This document shows, piece by piece, positions 33,001 to 63,742 of a DNA stretch of 64,000 nt. The position numbers and the translations under genes are program-made. Each line of letters opens with the position of its first letter. The first letter of the stretch is position 1. The stretch is from contig OZ014415.1 in the NCBI GenBank assembly GCA_963965975.1, forward strand, positions 5,337,001-5,401,000, read 5' to 3'. Source of the stretch: Xestospongia bergquistia (taxonomy: Eukaryota; Porifera; Demospongiae; Haplosclerida; Petrosiidae). The notes beneath the pieces are model-generated. The model was not told the DNA's origin and ran no database searches. It saw only the letters and a program-made list of their open reading frames with translations.

Positions 33001-36000
33001 AGTTTGAGTAATTATTGACTAACAAAATGATAGATAATGTGCGACTGTCAGAAGGAAACTGAAAAATAACTATCTGTTTACATCACTACTTTTAAAGTAG
33101 TTGATTTATGATAGTTTAAACAATATAAAGAATTATATTAAAGATTTCTATTGTATATGTTCTATATTATTGTATCTTGGTTTCTGTGGTATTTAAAGTA
33201 AATATATTTATCCAGTGCTATTTGTTATTAGGTTTTGCTAAACTTGTATCAGAATCTCGTAGTGATGGTCCCAAGATTCCCTGGGTACTACCTCCTACTA
33301 TGTCAACATCTCAATTGAGTAGTGTCTTCAAATTGGACTGGATACACAAGTCTGTAACAAAATTACTAATTACATACTGTATTATTTGTATTAATTATGT
33401 TTCATTATTTTAGGGGCACATTGCCATTTAGTCTCTGTCAAGATCTCAAGAACCCTTGGAATGAAAACAAACCTGTTAAAATTGGAAGAGATGGACAGGT
33501 TTGTTTATAATATTCTCACTATATTAATAAATTTAGCCCATGGCAAATATTTTTTCAAGCACACACAGATGGTTGATTTAGACATTGTGTATGTATATAT
33601 TGGTATATTCAATTCATGATCTATTATTGTATGTGACTTTTTAGAATGGCAAATGAAATGTTACATACATGAAGTAACTTCTCATGCATATAACAATGAA
33701 AATTATTACTTTTACTGTAATCACTGTGAATGGAGTTTGACTGATCAAATTTCTGAGTCTTGTTACTTGAGAAAACATCTTGAGCAGCTCCATAGCTTTT
33801 GCAAACTTTCTAGTCTTTAAAGGTAGCAAAATTTTAGTCCCTCATAGCAACATCAGTACCGATGAAGTAATTTTAGGGTGATTTTTCCATTTGGTATTGT
33901 TTTGGATCATGTAGTATCTATCTAAATATTTGGCCACTTACAATTTTAATGTATTATATGTGACTTTTGGGAGCAACAAATGAAGTTAAACTATGTCCTT
34001 TCAATGCTGCTGCATATAGCAACCAATGAATTTTATTAACTTTAACTGAAAGTGCTACAATAATGAGAGTGACTAGTAACACTTGAAGCTTCATGTTATC
34101 TTACTTTTCTGCCTATATTTCTAATATTCTATAGTTATGGTTTTCTACAGACAGTACTGGTAATTGTTCTAGCTCTAGTCAGTTCTTTGCTGTGAAGTCA
34201 ATATCTTCCAAAACAATTATAAGATGATTTTTCAATTAAAATCTTGTTGAAGTTACATATTGTCACTTCATTGTGCTTTTATGATGTGATCAATGTGATT
34301 ATTGATTATAACTCTCATACCATGTATTAATTACAGATTTAGTTCTATTGTAAATTGCGTTGTATATTTTTTTTGCTACAGGAGATTGAACCCACAGTAG
34401 GTGAAAAGTTATGTAGATTATGGTTAACAGTGAATGCAGACAGTAGCATCATCCGAGAACGAAAGAAATTCCCCTCCTATCATCACCAAGACATGTCACA
34501 TACATCATCTACTATATTTCCTGTCTCTATTCATCCTTTTGCAGCTACTCCGTTCCCCCATCCATCTTTAGGCTTATTCCCTGATGGGCGGCCGCCACAC
34601 ATCCACTTAAACCCCACCCTATATCCTCCTCCCAGGTTAGGCTCCCCTAGTGTATATTGCAGACCCCCCAGAAACTATCCTGGACCATCTAAAAGATATT
34701 CTGCACAACACAGAGCCCGAAGCAGGACTGCTAAGGACTCCACAGTGCCATGATTATTAACTAGTTTTAAACACCCTCAGGACTTATTCAATATTCCACA
34801 AACTACACTTAATAAGGAATTATGCCAGTGATAGAGATGCTGAGTATAATTTTGACTTTGTGAAGCTGCCATATGGATGCTATAAACACATCACTACATC
34901 TTCATTTGGACACATTGTTGGACAAAATTGTTGAACTGGGTTAAAAATTGAGTGTATAATCAGAACTTGCCTTAATGAACTTATGAACACTGCAAAACTA
35001 TTTTCTGAAACCAAGCATAGGTACTTTTTTAAAAGACTGTATCGCCTATTGCTATCATTTGAATGATGCTATGGAACTTTTGTCTTAAATGTGTCTGTAT
35101 TTTTATTATCGTGTGGGTTTTTAACTTTATTTTATGATTCTAGTATTAACCAATGTGTCAGCCTAAGGTATCATATAGTAGCCAGTCTCAGTATACTTAA
35201 TGTGTGATTTTAATGTGTCATATCTCTACCTAGTAAGCATCATTTGTCGCAGGCTGAAGCTCTCTTGAATTCCAAAGGAAGAAAAACAGAACATGATCAC
35301 CATAAAAAAGGTAATATTTTAAAGTGTTCAATCTATACACAACAATGTGAATGTTAGCCAGTGTATATGCAGTATGTATTTGATATGCTTAGTCGCAAAT
35401 AGTGATTGTAACAAACTTGGAAATAAAAAAAAGAGGCCAGTAGGTCGCACACAAAAAATGTCTTCTGCTTTACTTCTTAAAATCCTATTGGTGCTCTTTA
35501 GTCTTTAGGGGAAGCTACTCTTCAAGTAATACCAAAGAGAGAGAGACAGGATCTTTGCTCTGCACTTCTCTTGATGTTATAATTTTTGTTTGATATCAGT
35601 TATCAGTTAAAAATGTAAACAAATTAGAAAATAATTCATTACAATAGTATATCTCTAACAAGGCTAGGGTAGGAATAGCAATATGAAAACTAGCTACATA
35701 GAATGTACGTATTGTTGCATATGATAGAATTTTGACAATTGAAAATCGTGCACAAACTTGCTGTACTGTTTATTAGGAACGGATACTTTTGTCACTTTCA
35801 CAGAATTTATGTTAACCTTTTGATCATATTCATCTTAGAGAAGTCAGAAAGAATAATACGTCAACGTAGTCGAAGTAGAGAACGGGATGAACCACGGAGT
35901 AGTAGGAGTTCTAGAGAAGGAAAAAGAGAATCGGATCTGAGGAGGAGAAAGAGTCGAAGTAGAAGCCGTGAGAGAATATCACGTCATGACAGAGAAAAGA

Positions 36001-36908
36001 GCAAAAGGTAAGACTTAAGTTAATTTTCCCACAATAAAAATATTATTTAGACATTTCTTTATTAAGTGTTTGATTTAGGATTCATGTGTTGTGTTTTCTA
36101 GTATATATCACCCAATTATAACTGTTCAAATAGCAGTGAGGTCTAGCCAAGTAATTATTGAGTGGACAATGGAGTGACTTAATCATGTAGATCATGACTG
36201 CTACTCACCCACTCCTACACAATTAAAGAATTGGGATTAATGAGAGATGCCACCTCTCATGGATATTTCCACATGATGGCATACAATTTCCCAACTGCCC
36301 AGCACAAATTGAATGAACCAGTTATCATCCTGCCTTAGACCCAATTACTGGACCCTACATTGTATAATGTGCATTTTCTGAAAGCATGTCTTCAATATAC
36401 ATTGTGATATTGTATTGAGGTTAGGGTATTTTGCTATTAGATCACATAAGGAATCAACTTTTGAAAAGAGTTTTGGTGTATGCAAGGAGACGCTGTTACA
36501 TGGATCATATGCAGACTATATTAAGGAATATGCTGCTCGTAGTACTAGAGGATCTAGTAGTCAGGTATAATGTTTCTTTACATTGTAATTGCTGATATTA
36601 CTGTTTTCTATGTAGTCTTCCTTCAATATGGCAGGTATAGCATCTCAGTATCAGAAAGCTCTCTCTCAAGTGGCAACTGCTTTAGCTTCACAGACTGCTG
36701 CAAAGGTTAGCAATTATTGATTATTTTGTTTGTTAAACTCTATATGATATACCAATGGCTTTTGCTGAAAAGATACTATTTATCAATTATGTTTCACATT
36801 CTTGGTTTTTCTCCATTACAGCAACAACAACCAATGGATCCTGAGACTTACAATAAAAAGGTTGAAGAATTTCTTGAGCGAACAAAACATAAACCAAGTG
36901 ACAGTTAG
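27089..36908 (+). CDS. YTHDC1: YTHDC1-like nuclear m6A reader
   Basis: YTH-domain protein that recognises N6-methyladenosine in nuclear RNA. Exons: 27089-27263, 28151-28393, 29156-29245, 30260-30304, 30367-30420, 32457-32557, 32610-32663, 32718-32772, 33232-33349, 33414-33498, 34382-34635, 35234-35310, 35839-36007, 36441-36564, 36616-36705, 36822-36908; 606 residues. The N-terminal third is acidic and Lys-rich without a known fold. The YTH domain (about 213-355) shows [42 protein letters not shown], a WVLPPTM segment and [20 protein letters not shown]; aromatic-cage Trp residues are in the NVWST and PWVLP segments. A Pro/His-rich stretch follows, then an RS/RE-rich segment ([10 protein letters not shown]) and a tail with [10 protein letters not shown] and [15 protein letters not shown], which resembles the YTHDC1 C-terminus. 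If the donor at 34635 is not used, the frame stops at 34753, giving 463 residues without the RS tail. The long introns (27264-28150, 30421-32456, 33499-34381) hold no gene I recognise. Confidence 0.9.
29520..29700. repeat. Dispersed repeat copy in YTHDC1 intron
   Basis: A segment centred on TATAGCAACCAATGAATTT (about 29575) resembles a second segment near 34013-34140 in a later intron of the same gene, with matching bases on both sides (ATTAACY..AACT, GACT, TTGAAG). A partial, inverted match occurs near 60968. This is probably an old interspersed element. Confidence 0.35.
33951..34140. repeat. Second copy of the dispersed repeat
   Basis: It shares the core ATAGCAACCAATGAATTT and adjoining bases with 29520-29700, in the same orientation, but the flanks have diverged. 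Confidence 0.35.
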
Positions 36909-36987
36909 TTGGATCAACTATAATAACTTTTTGATTGCTTAATAATTGATTTTGTTGTACAATAATTATTATTATTTGTTTTGGCTC

Positions 36988-36993
36988 AATAAA
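36988..36993 (+). terminator. Probable YTHDC1 polyadenylation signal AATAAA
   Basis: It lies 80 bases after the long-isoform stop, inside the 173-base gap to the WDSUB1 stop on the other strand. The two 3' UTRs therefore probably overlap. Confidence 0.55.
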
Positions 36994-37081
36994 AAAGTAA
37001 TAATGAATGGGTGACACACTTTACATAATAAGTAAATGTTTTCATAATTATAAATATATTTATCTTGTCAAAATTGTCATA

Positions 37082-40000
37082 TTACTGATCTCTGTTTTGT
37101 TCAAGCTAAAAAAGGGTCAATAGCAAGAATTATTGAATATGTGCTTACTTGCTGAAGTATAATTTTCACACAGTGGTTCTGTATTAACATTGTATTTGGT
37201 AACATTACATTAGTTACTGGACTACGACGATTCCCCTCACTAAACCATGATATGATAGCAGATCTCTCATAAGTATGACCATCTGTAAAGTGCCAAGTTA
37301 TGCAATTAGTATTCAAAACTAATGAAATGAGTAAGTACCTGTTGCTATTACTGGATCCTTAAATAACTCTTGAGTGATAGGACACTTCAAATGACATTCT
37401 ATAATACATGAAATTAATAAAATTATGAATTGCATCTTATCACGTACCAATGCTGTTATCTCTTTCAGGAGTAGAAATATTCTGAACAGTTTTAACAAGC
37501 TGGGATAATTTTGTCACTATAATGTGGAAAAAAGAGAGAAAAATTGTTACAAGTGAAATTTAGCTTTGGAACACAGTTATGTACATTTAAGAGACACATC
37601 TTTGTAGTGCCATAAGGAGAATGTCTCCAATCCATGTAAACTTACATTTGATTACTTATAACTGGAACCCTATCTCCTAAACCTCAACTACACTCTAACC
37701 CTGTGACATTACTGGACAAGTAAAACATTTAATAACATTTAACATCTCATATCCAAATCAACCAAGTTATTCTATTGTTGTATGTAATTATCAAAGATGG
37801 CAATTATGTCTTTATCAACACTACACAAGTATGAAGTTAGTTATTCCCTAGGCTCTCTTAGTTACTATAAACACTTCTGTTTTATATGCTAAAATCATCA
37901 GCCTATGTACTATAAGATTTAGAAGTAGTCTGTGTGGGTCTAATAAAACCTTTACATGCACACTTGAGTTCTATTGCAACAACTCTTGGGGTTATAAAAT
38001 TGTATAAATCCATATACTTTACTACACGTGTATTTGTACCTTCATCACTTTGATCTCCTTTAAGACTACATTGACTATCAACAACAGAGCTAAGCCATGT
38101 ACAGACATCATTGAAAGCCTGTTTAGGGAGGACTGCTACTTCTGTCTCCTGCTCCTAATATGAAAGAGTAAGAATTGAAAGGCTCCTCAATTGTGTTAAT
38201 ACTGAAGTCAGGAAAATCACTTTCAGCATTTAGAAATGTAATATATACATGTCAAATCTCACTTGAGGAGGTGCTGATGGTATAGGACCCAAACTTGATT
38301 CGCTGGTAGCTAGGCGATTTTCAACTATTTACAACAAGATTACACTTGGGTCATTTAACATATCATTTTACCTTCTGATTCGAATAGTGCCCATATTTTT
38401 AATAACTTATCATTAGAGGTGGATGCTATCTTCTTACCGTCAGGAGAAAAACAACAATATGTCACATATCTATAGAGAAACAACCAGAATTCAGAACTAA
38501 AATTTTCAACCTTATACCTTGAATGAGCATCAATTTTCTTCACAACTCTCCCATCTTCCTATGTAATTAATTTATCATTATATTACATGTAGAACAAATA
38601 TAATGCAAATCTAAGTACATGTACATGTATGATGCACTCACAACATTCCAAACAATGACAGTCTTATCAGCAGATCTGTTATGGAATAATAGAAATTACA
38701 GTGGTGATACCACACAACATAATAACCCATAGTACACACAAAATTACCATATACATTTAGTTTCACTGTAGGTATGTAAGTAACAGAATCTGGACTTGGG
38801 CAGTGTGGTTAAGCTAGTAGTAGACCTACCAATCATTTCACTCTTAAGCTTTATAGATAAAATTACTAAATGCTAAGGAAATCAAGGCAATGGTTGCCTT
38901 ATTTTAATAAAATAAAGTCGTTCAGTTGCTGTTTATACACGTACATTGTTTATTATGTACATTATATATAACGTATACTCCCAGCAGCATCATTTACTTT
39001 TAAAATTACATTTAGATACAGGCTGGCATTTCATAGGATGTGGAAGGTGTGGGTTGTTAGTGGTTAAGTTCTTATAATGCACGAAATATACCTACACATG
39101 TGTGGATGCCTACTGAGGTTCCAATGTGAGAGTTCTTATGTGCAATGTGTAATGTTTGGGCTGAGAGTTTCTCCGTTTTAGGAGATTTAGTTCTTCAAGA
39201 TTATTCAGTTTTTTCACAAATAACACATTGACTTAAAGCTCCTGGAATTTTGGAAAACATGAGGTGAGTCTAGTTCAAATATCTTTTATGATGATATTAA
39301 TGTCTTTCGTATGATATGATGAGACATTGAGGTATATATACACTATAAACTAACCCAGTAATTATGTGCTCAAAATTTGGTGAAAACTGACAACTGTACA
39401 CAGCTGAACTGTGCCCTTGTAAAGAGCGGGTCAATTTAATAATCTCCTCTATAGTAAATAACATTAATTTTTTACATTTTGAAATCTAATTTAAATCTCC
39501 TTACTGCTAGATAACTGAACAGTCCAGAGCTTCACAACAGAGTCCTGACCGGCAGTAGCCAGTAAGAATGTATTTTCACTGGAATAAGAACATGCAAATG
39601 TGCACCAGCTGACACCCATATCGTGTGCAAAGACCTTCTTGAGACATTTGTTTGCAAATACATCTGATAATATGATTTCTCCACTGCTACCACCAGATAC
39701 AAGTAACCATCCCACAGAAGCAAAAGAACAACAGTTAACACTAGAAAAAGAATGGTAGCTTTAAACAAGATTACACATGTAAAACATTGGTTGTCTTGAT
39801 GCTGACACGAGAATAGTGGCACAAGATGTTTAAAAAGCAATTTAGTAGTTAAAACTTTATCAGTCATGCCAGGCAGAAAACAGCTTGTAGAAACTAAATG
39901 TATGAGTAGCCGCAAATGGTTTGAAGCTATAAAACAGAAATGTTTATAGTAAGTCCTACTAAACTTTTGGTTATTATAAACTGCCATGTAGAAATGTACT

Positions 40001-41652
40001 ATCTAATACACTGAGATATCGTTGGTGTATGGGAAAAAGTGTACTATACTATAATAACTAAATGTAGAATAATACATACTGTAAGCAAAATATAAGCATT
40101 CATTCAGTTAGATTCCTGCACTTTAGTGCCTTTCATCAGTTACTTATAAAATTGCATACAACAATAGTATTAAATGAAATAATAATTATAGAAACACAAA
40201 ATGATGTCCAAAACAACTTTAGGATGCTGAATCAAAGAGGCAGTGGAAATTTACTCATTCATTGCACAACCATTCTATGATGTAATGGGTCACAAGGTTT
40301 AAATAGAGTACTACACTGACTTTTATCAATTATAGTTGGCTAAGCATATTTCGTTGACAAGAATGTTTAAATTGTTCTCACATATTATGATAGAGAATTG
40401 ACCAAACTACCCAGAACTTCGTCTATTATGGCAAAACATGTGGACAAGCTTAATTTGATTGGCGCTGTTCAATTTGGAATGTACATGTAATATAAGTCTG
40501 GACTCCTTCTCACTTAAGGGGCGGAGTCTAGGATCAAGACTACCTTAGGACCATTTGGAATGAAACCATAACAGTTCATTATTTACAATGAGGAAACTTC
40601 ATTATATTTGGTATTTGAAAAATAAAACTTTGTTCCCTTTACTTCAACTGTTTATCATTACATAATAACTATACAACTTGATTACCTGCACTCATGTTTC
40701 CCGAACACACTGACACAATTCATAGCATTAGTATCCCAGACTCGTACAGTTTCGTCTCCTCCACTTGATGCAATAAGAGCTCCATCAGGTGAGAAACAAC
40801 ACATCTTGACACTGCCTTTATGACCAGTCAACGTACCTAAAAGTGGTAAATACAACTAAACTATCATGTATATAAATAGAATGAAAAAAGGTTTTAATAA
40901 TGAACAAAAGTGATAACCATAATGAAAGTACATATATGGTTTCATTTAGTGTAGAAAAAGGAATTTATCACTTCTATAGAAAGTAAGTAAATGATGACAA
41001 CTTGTCTTGTCCAACAGTTTTCATCTACACTGCCACTTAGAGAACACCAGGTTCATTTCATATTAAATAATTGAAGCCATTGCTAACAATCAACACTGCA
41101 TATAACAATAGAGTTTGAGGCTAAACTAAAAGTTACAAAAGAAGTGAATGGCATATGTCAATGTCATAGACAACTACCATGGCATTATGGTAGTTTAAAG
41201 TGGACAGACCCGATTCATATGACCAAATGATGATTTGAGGAAGCTGAATTACATTCATTTGTTAAGACTTCAATCAGAGCTTTATAGGAGCGGTTCTTGA
41301 GTTTCTAAATCAGACTTTAACATAAGTATTGTGAGACAAGGTGGCAAATGTGAGAATACCAATACTTTACTTTTGCCTTACCAACACTTTTCCATGTTGT
41401 AGTAGACCACAGTTTAATAGTACCATCAGATGAAGCTGAAGCTAAAAGATCACCATTTGGACTAAACACACACGAATTAACATAGTATGTATGTCCTTTT
41501 AGAGGAGATTGGGCTAGTTCTTGACCAGTATTTGTGTCCCAGATTCTGATGACTTTGTCACCACCAGCAGATGCAATGTAAGGCTGAACTGGAGACCATT
41601 CACAATGATTTACATCACCTTCGTGACCTCTATAGACATGAAGAAGTGCCAT
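37082..41652 (-). CDS. WDSUB1: WDSUB1-like WD40-repeat / U-box protein
   Basis: Predicted E3 ubiquitin ligase with a WD40 substrate-binding part and a U-box that recruits E2. Exons, 5' to 3': 41652-41382, 40836-40686, 39740-39505, 39448-39355, 38675-38642, 38558-38518, 38469-38372, 38324-38263, 38154-38040, 37516-37448, 37398-37339, 37282-37149, 37105-37082; 462 residues, phases consistent. WD repeats cover about 1-308 (GHEGDVNHCEWSP, DKVIRIWD, GHTYYVNSCVFSP, DGTIKLW, GHKGSVKMCCFSPDG, DETVRVWD, GHSSAVYSCQFSP, DKTVIVWN). The U-box at about 392-455 has CPITQELFKDPVIAT and DGHTYERSAIISWF. The linker of roughly 70-80 residues between them is too short for the SAM domain found in vertebrate WDSUB1; only AFNDVCTWLSSVV resembles a SAM start. 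The exon 39448-39355 has no long open frame of its own but is needed to keep phase and restores a WD repeat. Confidence 0.88.
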
Positions 41653-41821
41653 ACTCAGTATTTAGGGTGTAGGTAGTTTGAGGGCGGGGCTTATAAGGTC
41701 TGGGGGCGTGTTTCCAGTTTCCAGGTTGTTTTTTGTTTTGCATTTTTGGTCGACCCACAAGTGGAGTTCATCTTTTTGTCAGGTACATGATAGATCTGTT
41801 GTTTAGAAAGAAGCAAAATAA
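41653..41821. promoter_or_regulatory. Short shared promoter between WDSUB1 and NOX5
   Basis: 169 bases separate the two divergent ATG codons. The WDSUB1-proximal half contains GGGCGGGGC (about 41682) and GGGGGCG (about 41702), GC-box-like motifs in otherwise AT-rich DNA. No TATA box is evident. Confidence 0.55.
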
Positions 41822-44800
41822 ATGGAGTTAGGTGAACCAGAAATTATATTTGTTCGTTCAGATCAGGCATCTCCTCCTACCCAAGCTCACCTGGATACTG
41901 GGGAAGTGTCTCGAACTTTAGAATGGTTTAGAGAAGTACTGTTGGTTGTTGCTAAAGATGGTATTATCACTGTAAAAGAACTCAAAAATGTAGTGAAGGG
42001 AAACAAAGTAAGATTTATTCCACGCTCCATAATTATGTTTTATATGCAGTGTTTGCCTTGCACAGCAAAATTAGATAAATGCAGCTGTTCAGCATAAAAG
42101 TATAAGGTCGTGTTTAGAGTGCTGCTAATAGAATATTGCACTTTAATGGGAAATTAAGACCTTAAATGTTGAAACCTAAATGTATTAACTTCACATTGAA
42201 ATACAATGTATTGTTATTGGCACTCTAGCCATTTCTTAAAACTAAACTTGAGCATTTGTTACATAATTTTTGCACACACAACTTATAACTTAGTCATTGA
42301 TCTCACACTGCTCTAGACACCTTGTACATAACTTTCTGCACTTTTTATTTAGTTTGCTCTTTGCTATCTTCAAGTTTCTTGAATTGCTAATTGTAAACTA
42401 GTATTTCCTCTGTGGATACAACAAAATACTGTTCTTGCATACCTGTGGCTCTGGTAAAACAATTATTGCATTCCTACCCTTGACCGAACCATAAGCATGT
42501 ATTATTATAGAATCTAAGGTGGGATTGATGCAATGTCTGGACTCGTAATAAGACACTCCACTTATAGTAAGCAAGCCTCAAATTCATCGAAAGAATTCTG
42601 TTTACTCTTCTTTTAAGAGAACTTTCATTATCTGTTTTGAGGTCAACTTTACCAATGGATCCAAAATTGAGTGATTTAAAGGACTTAGGTAGCTTTGATC
42701 TGACAGCATATTTGGCTACATTGTACTTAGATAATGGTCGTGGTTGTTTATGAAGAAGGAACTAGCCATTTAAGCACTTAGGTTCAAATATAAACCTGCT
42801 AGGAGGGTTTTGTCAGCTTAGTATGAGTTGGTTCATCAGATGTCATATCAATAGTAATTCTGCCAACTCAAGAATTTGTAAGGTGGTGCCCTTCTGATGA
42901 TTCCTCATTGGCAAGTTTATACAATGCATATAAAACTCTGAACTCATAATTAATTAATATTAGTAGTAATTAGGTATTACCCATTTCCCCGGAGGGCTAA
43001 AAATATGACAAACAGACACAGTTTCATGCCATTGATTGCTCTTTATTGTGACTCACTCAGGCTCACCCAAATTATATTATATTTTGTTTTTAGGATTTTG
43101 CTGAAAATCTCTTCTGGCTTTTTGATACTGATCAAAGTGACAATATTACCCTTCAGGAACTTATAGGAGGTTTGAGTCGTCTCACTGTGTAAGTTAAGTT
43201 AGGTGGATAATTGCCAAATAGTCTAAAATGTCAATCTTATATATTCTATTTATGTTAATAGTAAAGGAAAGAAGAAAAAAATATTACAGTGGTTTGAGAA
43301 AACATTTGCTATAGTTTCTGGAGAAGATAATCTGCTACAACTGGATGAGTTTGAAAATGCATTACAAATAAATGGCGTATGGATATATTTTATCAGACAA
43401 CATATCTGATTTATTTATATTTTTTCTTAGTTTGTTGAAAGACTATTTCAATTGATGGATAATGGCAATGCTGGAAAGCTAACCATACCAGAAGTTCTAG
43501 ATTGTTTAGGGAAATTGACCTGGTAGCCAAACACATTAAGCTATAACCCAATATACCTCCCTCCCTTATACTAGTACGGACAAAGATGCAAACTGGCTAT
43601 CATGGTTTGAACAGAAGTTCTCTAATATTGCTGGAACTAATCGACAAATTGACTTCGATGAATTCAAGCGAGCATTTAATGTATCACATGTTAGTATTAA
43701 AACTTTGTGCCACAATATATGACATTATTAATTTTATTCTTTATAACCAGTCAACTTTCTTTGCTGAACGGTTTTTTCATTTATTTGACATTGACAACAG
43801 TGGGACTATTAGCTTAAGAGAACTGATGGATGGTTTGACAATTTTAACACAAGGTACAAGAGTAGAGAAGTTACGTTTTCTTTTTCGAGTATATGATGTT
43901 GATGGTAAGGAATTACAATTGTATTTAACTATATTTTGAGCATTTTTAGAATTTAATAATGACATTAACTCTTTAGGTAATGGTCTAATTGATTTTGAAG
44001 AATTGAGAACTGTCCTTAAATCATGCATGGATGAAAGTGCTCTCAAATTAAGTGATGACAATTTGGATGAATTAACAAGGTAAAATAAACTACTTCAATT
44101 ACATAATAATAGGTATAAAATTGTTGTTGTCATCATTAGAGCACTTTTTGAGGATGCAGATATTGATGGCAATGGCAGTATAACTTTTGATGAGTTACAA
44201 GCTGAACTGGAAAAGCACCCAGATGTTATAGAGAATCTTACAATAAGGTACTATCATAATCTAATTGTATCAATTATGCACGTTCTCTTCTATAGTGCAG
44301 CTAATTGGCTAAAACCCCAAGTCTTAAAGAAAAAGAAAAGGTGTCTTGACTACTTTCCTAGTTGGATGAGATGGACATATATAAGGAACAATCTGTCATT
44401 AGTCTTCTTTGTGGTACTCTTTGCATCTATTAATGTTGTGCTGTTTATTGATGCTGCTGTTAGGCATAGAGAGAAAGGTTAATAACATTCATATACTTGT
44501 ATTGTTGAGGATAGTTGGCTTAACATCTGAAGAAAGCTTTATATGACATATTCAGCACAACTTGTAACTTATCATTATAATTCGCTGTAATTATAGGGTT
44601 TTTAGTTTCTATTGCTCGTGGATGTGGACAATGCCTAAACTTTACTCCTGTTGTCGTCTTGATTTTAATGATGAGAAAAGCAATGACATGGCTTCGCTCA
44701 ACAAGACTATCCAATCTCTTTCCATTAGATCATTACATAGAACTTCACAAGATGACAGGCTATGTTATATTCTTTTTCTCTATGTGTCATTTTTTAGCAC

Positions 44801-46602
44801 ACTTGGCTAATTTCAGTGAGATTATAATAAATGTGACATGTTTAATTTTTCCCTCAAAGGCCGTATAGAAATACAGAATATTGAAACCAACTACACTATG
44901 TGGATGTATCTTTTTGGAGTTGGTAGTGATCTTGGTTGGGTTTTTGGTACTGCTGGGCTTACTGGATTAATATTGTTGATCATTTTGATAATAATGATCA
45001 TTTGTTCATTACCTGTTATACGTCGTAAAGGGAAATTTGAGGTGTTTTATTGGACACACAACCTTTTCATAGTTTGGTACATTGTTCTTATATTACATGG
45101 ACCCCACTTTTGGAAATGGTTCATTGGTCCTGCGTTGTTTTATATATTTGAGCGTATTCTCCGATCTAAGATAATCAAACTAGTTCGATATGGAAGAACT
45201 TACATCCAAGAGGGAATTCTGCTACCATCTAAAGTTAGTAAGGGTAAAGTTAAATTGATTGATTTTAACTTTACATCAGGTGGTACATCTGGTTATCTCT
45301 AGACCCACCAACTTTTCTTTTCAACCTGGAGACTATGTATTTGTTCAAATACCTTGTATAGCTAAATATGAGTGGCATCCTTTTACAATTAGCTCTGCTC
45401 CTGAGCAACAGGGTGTTTTTTGGCTGCATATTCGATCTGTTGGAACATGGACTAAAAAACTATATGAGTACTTTGAAATGAAAAATAAGGAGAAAATTAA
45501 AGGTAGTTAGATGAAGATTAATAATTGTGCCATTGTCATGTAGGTATTCTACCTCTACAACTACTTACTCAACCTCAAAAACATTTAAATCCATCAAGAA
45601 AAGTTGCTCCTATGTTAGATGGATCTCTAGAAGAGGAAGACACCCACCCATTAGCCCCAGCTACTGAAACTACTGATTTTCATAGGCAAAGTTTCTCACA
45701 TATGCATTTTGAACCTGTTATTATCAATGTTCAAGTAGAAGATGAAGATATTAATGCTGTACAGGTAATTAATTTATGTCATAGATAAATTATATACCTA
45801 CTACCATTAGGTGTTCATTGATGGACCATATGGATCACCCTCTGTACATATATTTCAAGCTGAGCATGCTGTATTGATTGGGGCTGGTATTGGAGTCACA
45901 CCATTTGCTTCTATTCTCCAAAGTATCATGATAAGGTATCGAAATGCTAGACAAGTGTGTCCCAGGTGTAATCATAGCTGGACAGGAAGCATTCCATCCT
46001 CAGTCATGAGACTACGGAAGGTCAGTAATAGTATAGCTGCTGACCTGTTGGTTGGTATGTAACATACATATAGCTTTCTAAATTCTATGTGTTAAACATT
46101 ATTTAGCAAAATAGTCAGTGGGTCAATCGCGGTTATCATAATACATCATTTTTGAATAGGTGGATTTCTTTTGGATTAATAGACATCAAAAATATTTTGA
46201 ATGGTTTATAAGTCTCCTCAGTCAATTGGAAATAGAACAAACTGAACAGGATGGATTTGATCGATTCCTTGACATGCATATGTACATGACCTCAGCTCTT
46301 AGAAAAACAGATATGAAGGGAATTGGCTTACAGATGGCATTGGATTTGATTCATAAAAAGGAAAAGAGAGACCTCATTACAGGATTAAAAACTCGTACCC
46401 AAGCAGGTCGTCCAAATTGGGAGAAGGTGATTTATTCATTCAGTTGCTTATGTTGTTGACTGTTTATTAGGTATTTCAACAATTAGATAACGAAAGGCGC
46501 GGAAAAATAACTGTTTTCTATTGTGGAATGCCATCTCTTGGTAGAATACTAAGGGAGAAATGTGTTCAATATGGATTTGAATTCAGAAAAGAAAACTTTT
46601 AA
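41822..46602 (+). CDS. NOX5: NOX5-type calcium-regulated NADPH oxidase with expanded EF-hand region
   Basis: Integral membrane flavocytochrome that passes electrons from NADPH through FAD and two hemes to oxygen. Exons: 41822-42007, 43094-43188, 43262-43376, 43431-43522, 43575-43689, 43751-43904, 43977-44079, 44140-44247, 44296-44477, 44597-44815, 44860-45233, 45280-45502, 45544-45764, 45811-46020, 46160-46426, 46471-46602; 931 residues, longer than the roughly 740-765 of human NOX5. The N-terminal 320 residues carry eight EF-hand-like units; canonical loops are DTDQSDNITLQE, DIDNSGTISLRE, DVDGNGLIDFEE and DIDGNGSITFDE. The heme-binding membrane region follows, with His in HYIELHKMTGY and in the MCHFLAHL and HNLFIVWYIVLILHGPHFW helices. 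FAD motif is HPFTISSAPE; NADPH motifs are DGPYGSP, GAGIGVTPFASIL and CGMPSLGRIL; the C-terminus ends ENF as in NOX5. A Pro/Glu/His-rich loop (exon 45544-45764) lies between the FAD and NADPH parts, where NOX5 has a calmodulin-related insert. The intron 45234-45279 is only 46 nt. Confidence 0.95.
42008..43093 (+). other. First intron of NOX5, no recognisable content
   Basis: This 1.1 kb intron is AT-rich. I see no exon with WF/EF-hand-like sequence in it, and no repeat with clear ends. Confidence 0.6.
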
Positions 46603-47788
46603 AGTTAAATCAAGTAGTGTACTTTATCCTGTGCATTCATCATTAAGTAATATTTTATTAATCAAATAGTGAACAAATCAATTTCATAATGCACATTAAA
46701 AAATTATAAAGGAGAAATGAAGGATCAAGGATCAAGACATGTCCTAGTTGTGTCAAAAAGTAGATATTGCAAAACTATTTTTAAAAAAAATATTGTTTAG
46801 TCCTATACATTCATGCTTTATAATAGACAGAGAACAGTGATACAAGCACTCAAAAATATACTTACATAAGGACTGAAAAGAACACATCTTCGTTCATGTC
46901 ATTACGCCCATTTCAAAGGTAAAATACAGATTACTACATATGAGGTTTCAGTCATAACATTTATACAAAACTGTCTTTCCTTGATTACAGGAATGTAACC
47001 AGCCATATGGGACTGTGGCATCAGTACATTAAAACAGGAGTGTCTTCTCATTTTTCTGTTGTAAAAGAGAGATTGACTTAAGTGTTCTGTTGTTAGTTGC
47101 TCTTAGCCAAACCAATAGTTTTGTTGAAATGAATACCAGTTCTTTTAAACGGCTGACTAGACCTATTACTAGATAAAACTAGCATCATATTTATTGTTAT
47201 ACGTAATTAACACCAACAAAATCACAAGACTCTTTGTATAGTAGTACATTTAAGTTGTAATTTAGCAGTCGTTCCAGTTAGTTTTTTTTAGTTTTACATG
47301 TTATGAATGCTAAGATTAAGACTTACTACTGCCATGCACAATGTTACTCTAAGAAAGATACTGTTGAACAAGAGCATATAGTAAAAATGACTAACAGAAG
47401 ACACCCCATAGAATTTGACAGGATTCTTAAATGTCCAGACTAAGGTAGAAGACACATTAATAGTCTGAATACTAATTATAAAGTTAGTGCTAACTTCACA
47501 GGTGATCAAATATGGACTTCCTCCATCCATCACAGCAATTACTTTGACCATTTAGATTATGCAGATACTTAACAAGCTACAGCCTGTTGTTTTTTGCTGC
47601 ATACTTGAAAGCCCTCTACTTAATTGGTCCTTTGGTATAGCTGCTGTAGTGATTAGAGGAACAATCGTTAATTGTTGCCATAGTTTGATGAAAAGTACTC
47701 ATTGTATTAAATTCATATCAATAGAGACTAATAATGAGTGAAATAATGAATACATGGCTGTTGATAAAAGTAAGTACTCTAATTTTCT
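46603..47788. other. Convergent intergenic region, NOX5 and ATR 3' ends
   Basis: It holds the 3' UTRs of both neighbours. An ATTAAA at 46695-46700 (plus) is a candidate NOX5 polyadenylation signal. A minus-strand open frame of 85 codons (47294-47551) has no recognisable motif and lies downstream of the ATR stop, so I do not call it. Confidence 0.5.

Positions 47789-63742
<15,954 letters not shown>

Follow-up and report, generated by a model that had tools for sequence, protein, structure and literature searches.

How many EF-hands can precede the catalytic core of a NOX5, and, where there are more than four, are the additional ones copies of its own? NOX5 is given four EF-hands in the available portions of Kawahara et al. 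(PMC1940245), of a study of arthropod NOX enzymes (PMC5372347) and of a 2022 survey (PMC9421330). The stretch of DNA analysed here, 64,000 nucleotides of the sponge Xestospongia bergquistia (the window), holds a NOX5 gene whose N-terminus, according to a first-pass annotation, is built from three tandem copies of a two-exon EF-hand-pair module. Among the literature matches listed, mostly open-access articles other than preprints, no NOX5 with more than four EF-hands is found. The 'extra' or 'additional' EF-hands of NOX5 mentioned in two papers were considered as a precedent and rejected; in the portions available, they are the ordinary NOX5 EF-hands. The window gene is most probably a sponge NOX5 in which the EF1-2 module has been tandem-duplicated twice, with a predicted total of eight EF-hand-like units.

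Gene model and relatives of the window NOX5

The gene model, at 41822-46602 of the forward strand, consists of 16 hand-placed exons with GT-AG borders and encodes a protein of 931 residues (Table 1). EF-hands and the ferric reductase, FAD- and NADPH-binding domains (PF01794, PF08022 and PF08030) all score above the Pfam cut-offs in this protein, and EF1-EF4 lie directly N-terminal of the membrane part; a peroxidase domain is absent from the gene model, the Pfam matches and the PDB alignment. The first six exons share one frame, and intron 1 measures 1086 nt, compared with 41-139 nt for the other introns. The host genome comprises 146 Mb in 21 contigs.

Table 1. Exons of the window NOX5, and the DspNOX-like row of open reading frames (ORFs) elsewhere in the same genome
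Feature	Position	Strand	Content
NOX5 exon 1	41822-42007	+	ATG, leader of 30 residues, N-terminal half of EF-pair copy 1 (residues 1-62)
NOX5 exon 2	43094-43188	+	95 nt, phase 0 to 2; C-terminal half of copy 1, with loop DTDQSDNITLQE
NOX5 exon 3	43262-43376	+	115 nt, phase 2 to 0; N-terminal half of copy 2
NOX5 exon 4	43431-43522	+	92 nt, phase 0 to 2; C-terminal half of copy 2, with degenerate-looking loop DNGNAGKLTIPE
NOX5 exon 5	43575-43689	+	115 nt, phase 2 to 0; N-terminal half of copy 3, corresponding to EF1 of human NOX5
NOX5 exon 6	43751-43904	+	154 nt, phase 0 to 1; holds EF2 of copy 3, continuous with the start of EF3
NOX5 exons 7-8	43977-44247 (43977-44079, 44140-44247)	+	EF3-EF4 lobe, canonical ligand positions kept
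NOX5 exons 9-16	44296-46602	+	Transmembrane ferric reductase, FAD- and NADPH-binding domains
DspNOX-like ORF row (L068 and L070)	Contig C8, about 52700-56700	-	Pfam and NOX match

The closest relative of the protein in the PDB is human NOX5 (6sz5, phmmer E 3.1e-240), and the other NOX structures matched are bacterial chains of the csNOX5 type (3.3e-82) and DUOX1 (7.9e-67). Like human NOX5 (6sz5, 8u7y), the window protein carries, in identical order, EF1-2, EF3-4, the six-helix ferric reductase, and the FAD and NADPH domains, and keeps the CxxC of the NADPH domain (CPRC in the window NOX5, CPSC in human). Human NOX5 is collinear with it in two stretches, residues 164-648 and 726-931, which agrees with the earlier claim that the human enzyme begins at the equivalent of copy 3. 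Residues 1-163, the product of exons 1-4 plus the first base of exon 5, lack a collinear counterpart in human NOX5, and it is here, before EF1, that the window NOX5 differs by two additional EF1-2-type modules. The four EF-like units proposed to have been added are recovered by both profile and gene model beyond the usual four, with no NOX5 feature lost. A second difference is the loop at about residues 650-729 (45480-45764), before the NADPH-binding part, which is net acidic (charge -6), whereas the PhosR segment of human NOX5 is basic; inhibition through docking to the acidic EF domain may differ from that in human NOX5. Taken jointly, orthology of the gene to animal NOX5 and two tandem duplications of its EF1-2 module are well favoured by these comparisons.

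A search of the genome (E up to 1e-5) finds no second NOX5 gene. Other NOX genes, considered as a source of the copies and rejected, amount in this search to DUOX, a DspNOX-like locus and one further NOX-like locus (C4:4142571). DUOX resembles the window NOX5 in that EF-hands precede the NOX core, but has a peroxidase domain; the DUOX of this genome is a separate gene on contig C4, its peroxidase domain and EF-NOX frame sharing one strand. DspNOX, a calcium-type NOX of sponges, is reported by Hewitt and Degnan only from Demospongiae and carries PAS and extra membrane helices, as far as the accessible part of their paper goes (PMC9524095). Among the Pfam matches of the 931-residue NOX5 at E up to 1 there is no PAS family, and the probable DspNOX-like gene of this genome lies on another contig than NOX5. 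Its ORF row comprises a cytochrome b561 match (PF03188, 4.8e-10), PAS (PF00989, 4e-8) and a NOX-like region, with a stretch that by eye appears disordered. Evidence of the NOX part is a single match (27% identity, E 5.5e-11), and its first ORF has no Pfam match. The row is a candidate DspNOX-type gene, and as such it would mark the genome as probably that of a demosponge. Should the row form a single gene, a b561 electron-transfer domain may account for the extra membrane helices of DspNOX, a name not given to them in the accessible part of PMC9524095.

Exons 1-4 could be relics, or part of a rarely used transcript, with a working protein that begins at copy 3, as human and bacterial NOX5 do at the equivalent position; the weak loops of copy 2 would fit this. 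However, EF1 lacks a start codon in exon 5, and the next methionine codons of the spliced frame after M1 are at residues 141 and 227. Exons 1-4 are all open and spliceable despite identities of 31-40% between the modules, and their 162 open codons have a chance of 7e-6 at the stop frequency of the window, a rough value since the exon borders were chosen to be open. In addition, the ATG of exon 1 is about 170 bp from the start of a WD40 gene, which runs head to head on the reverse strand, and the interval (41652-41822) is probably a promoter shared by the two genes. We consider it very unlikely that the protein starts at copy 3, and treat exons 1-4 as part of the NOX5 gene. A U-box match near 37101-37358 lies on the same strand as the WD40 gene, which is presumably WDSUB1-like. 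Elsewhere in the window, a PI3/PI4-kinase-type domain at 50924-51163 on the reverse strand (PF00454, 6.6e-15) is one that we take to resemble ATR.

Likeness of the three EF1-2 modules

The three modules give local alignment scores of 90 (copies 1 and 2), 78 (copies 1 and 3) and 109 (copies 2 and 3) with one another, and of 96, 104 and 186, for copies 1, 2 and 3, with human EF1-2; none of 2000 shuffles reaches the observed score in any of these comparisons. EF-hands are common, with at least 112 EF-hand-pair matches in this genome, and the three segments might be ordinary EF-hand pairs, alike as all EF-hands are, without any duplication specific to NOX5. Against EF3-4 of their own protein, however, copies 1, 2 and 3 score only 40, 27 and 44, and at 30 EF-hand loci of the same genome (the best 30 of those matches) the best ORF per locus reaches at most 59, 47 and 58, a control that is smaller than its number suggests because several of the loci are neighbouring or near-identical genes, leaving fewer than 30 independent ones.

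The same distinction is made by a profile of EF1-2 built from the human and 15 bacterial NOX5 modules, with the three window copies left out. It matches the window NOX5 at residues 32-92 (30.6 bits), 100-161 (38.2 bits) and 169-234 (65.0 bits), each match spanning nearly the whole profile. Among 917 ORFs from 33 loci, the best other single domains belong to DUOX (24.5 bits) and then to one EF protein (21.0 bits), the latter covering the second half of the profile only. On whole-protein score, this unrelated EF protein (40.1 bits, three part-matches summed) exceeds copy 1 alone (37.9 bits); since summed scores of several EF-hands can overtake copy 1 in this way, the modules were judged by single domains.

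The weakest of the half-modules is that of exon 1, and this weakness, like the long intron behind the exon, counts against the proposed duplication. Taken alone, the exon 1 half of copy 1 resembles copy 2 (its score is reached in 0 of 5000 shuffles) and human EF1 (4 of 5000), but its likeness to copy 3 is not significant (273 of 5000), and exon 1 alone is missed by the human-plus-bacterial EF1-2 profile at E up to 1. When residues 1-163 are searched alone, the top PDB match is human NOX5 EF1-2 (residues 28-109 on 5-87, E 5.4e-6), with calcineurin B a close second (E 6e-5). The weakness of the exon 1 half towards copy 3 and the nearness of calcineurin B are what might be expected of ordinary EF-hand pairs; the mutual scores, the single-domain profile ranks and an intron common to the copies in position and phase all speak against them, and we find that explanation scarcely credible. 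As judged by these alignment and profile scores, copies 1 and 2 are shown to be homologous to NOX5 EF1-2 rather than to other EF-hands. Alignments, shuffles, the 30-locus control and three full-length profile domains thus bear out the three tandem copies of the first-pass annotation. Six half-module exons are detected in 36000-48000, and a six-frame profile scan of this interval finds no further copy, either upstream or within intron 1. In the EF region, an NCBIfam scan gives three matches, all under the cut-off and by name unrelated proteins.

Intron phases and the origin of the additional modules

Every EF module is cut by a phase-0 intron at one shared place, immediately ahead of the second EF helix, and exon 3 has the length of exon 5; the gene model here agrees with the earlier reading, as it does for the phase-2 introns at the ends of copies 1 and 2. 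The proposal that a phase-2/2 symmetric exon pair was duplicated twice holds in part: the tandem duplication stands, and exons 3 and 4 are literally such a unit, but they are the only one. Pair 1 opens with the exon that holds the ATG. Pair 3 is continuous with the remainder of the gene, exon 6 passing into EF3 with no phase-2 border after EF2. With this border missing from copy 3, the duplication scheme requires an intron loss in copy 3 or a gain in the other copies.

A scan of outside genome contigs gives 17 bacterial NOX5 loci, two of which (L029 and L034) were left out of the count because their open frame stops short of the N-terminus. All 15 with an N-terminus, by title 12 cyanobacterial and three alphaproteobacterial, have exactly one full EF1-2 module; like the window NOX5, bacterial enzymes of the csNOX5 type place the EF domain before the same catalytic core, and they differ in this single module. 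One of the bacterial loci (L031) is from Pacificispira spongiicola, sponge-associated by name, and encodes a four-EF NOX5. A scan of viral contigs yields a single match (L071), which has no EF module at E up to 1.

In a module tree of the three copies, human and five of the 15 bacterial sequences, the three copies fall on one side of a branch with support of 73/77, and the copies and human are separated from the bacteria with support of 87/91; neither branch is firm. Copies 1 and 2 form long branches, a topology in which copy 3 is constrained with human is not rejected (p-AU 0.255), and an earlier tree, with DUOX and six of the 15 bacterial rows, does not group the three copies. Modules of 65 residues give no firm order of duplication in these trees.

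That the module tree leaves the copies unordered would also suit a long sensor that the ancestor of animal NOX5 already had and that other lineages lost, as would the strong divergence of the copies and the fact that copies 1 and 2 are about equally near to human EF1-2 and to copy 3. The single module of the bacterial NOX5 speaks against such an ancestor, as do the four EF-hands of NOX5 in the available portions of the surveys. The accessible part of the 2022 survey reports that cyanobacterial and metazoan NOX5 share a single origin, with transfer from a eukaryote as the likely route (PMC9421330). An ancestral long sensor appears unlikely to us; because the copies are alike and share the phase-0 intron, and bacterial NOX5 is single-module, we conclude that the EF1-2 module was duplicated in tandem, probably in this lineage.

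Calcium loops, splicing and the predicted sensor

By inspection of the loops, the calcium-ligand residues are largely kept in copy 1, which may be a putative Ca2+ binder, and largely lost in copy 2, which looks degenerate. In the proposed arrangement, the N-terminal calcium-sensing lobe, a two-exon module of a non-canonical EF1 and a canonical EF2, would have been tandem-duplicated twice, giving a sensor of four lobes, three of EF1-2 type and one of EF3-4. The EF3-4 lobe would remain the switch, as it is in human NOX5 in the available passages of two reports (PMC11088703, PMC7317449), with copy 3 presumably holding the place of the N-lobe. Copy 1 would contribute one or two putative Ca2+ sites, and copy 2, its loop ligands lost, could be a docking lobe or a structural spacer. 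Overall, the Ca2+ threshold or cooperativity would be altered, with no new catalytic activity.

Within exons 1-6, no single skip among exons 2-5 keeps the frame, whereas skips of exons 2+3, 3+4, 4+5 or 2-5 leave it open and free of stops; a skip of exons 2+5 is in frame by length, yet meets seven stops. Since each frame-keeping skip takes out one or two modules' worth of sequence, splicing could set a sensor of four, six or eight units with different Ca2+ thresholds, a proposal that we hold to be doubtful.

The same arrangement may sit unremarked in other sponge gene models, because the comparison with animal sequences covered the PDB and the sponge's own genome. In the available text of one of two surveys that give NOX5 four EF-hands (PMC9421330; PMC1940245), EF-hand numbers of NOX enzymes are considered to differ probably by mutation and deletion, not by acquisition. 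NOX5 is the minimal calcium-regulated superoxide producer, and one whose N-lobes were duplicated would provide a counterexample to the change of EF-hands by loss. It would also be a natural experiment on the role of the poorly resolved EF1-2 lobe in setting the calcium threshold.
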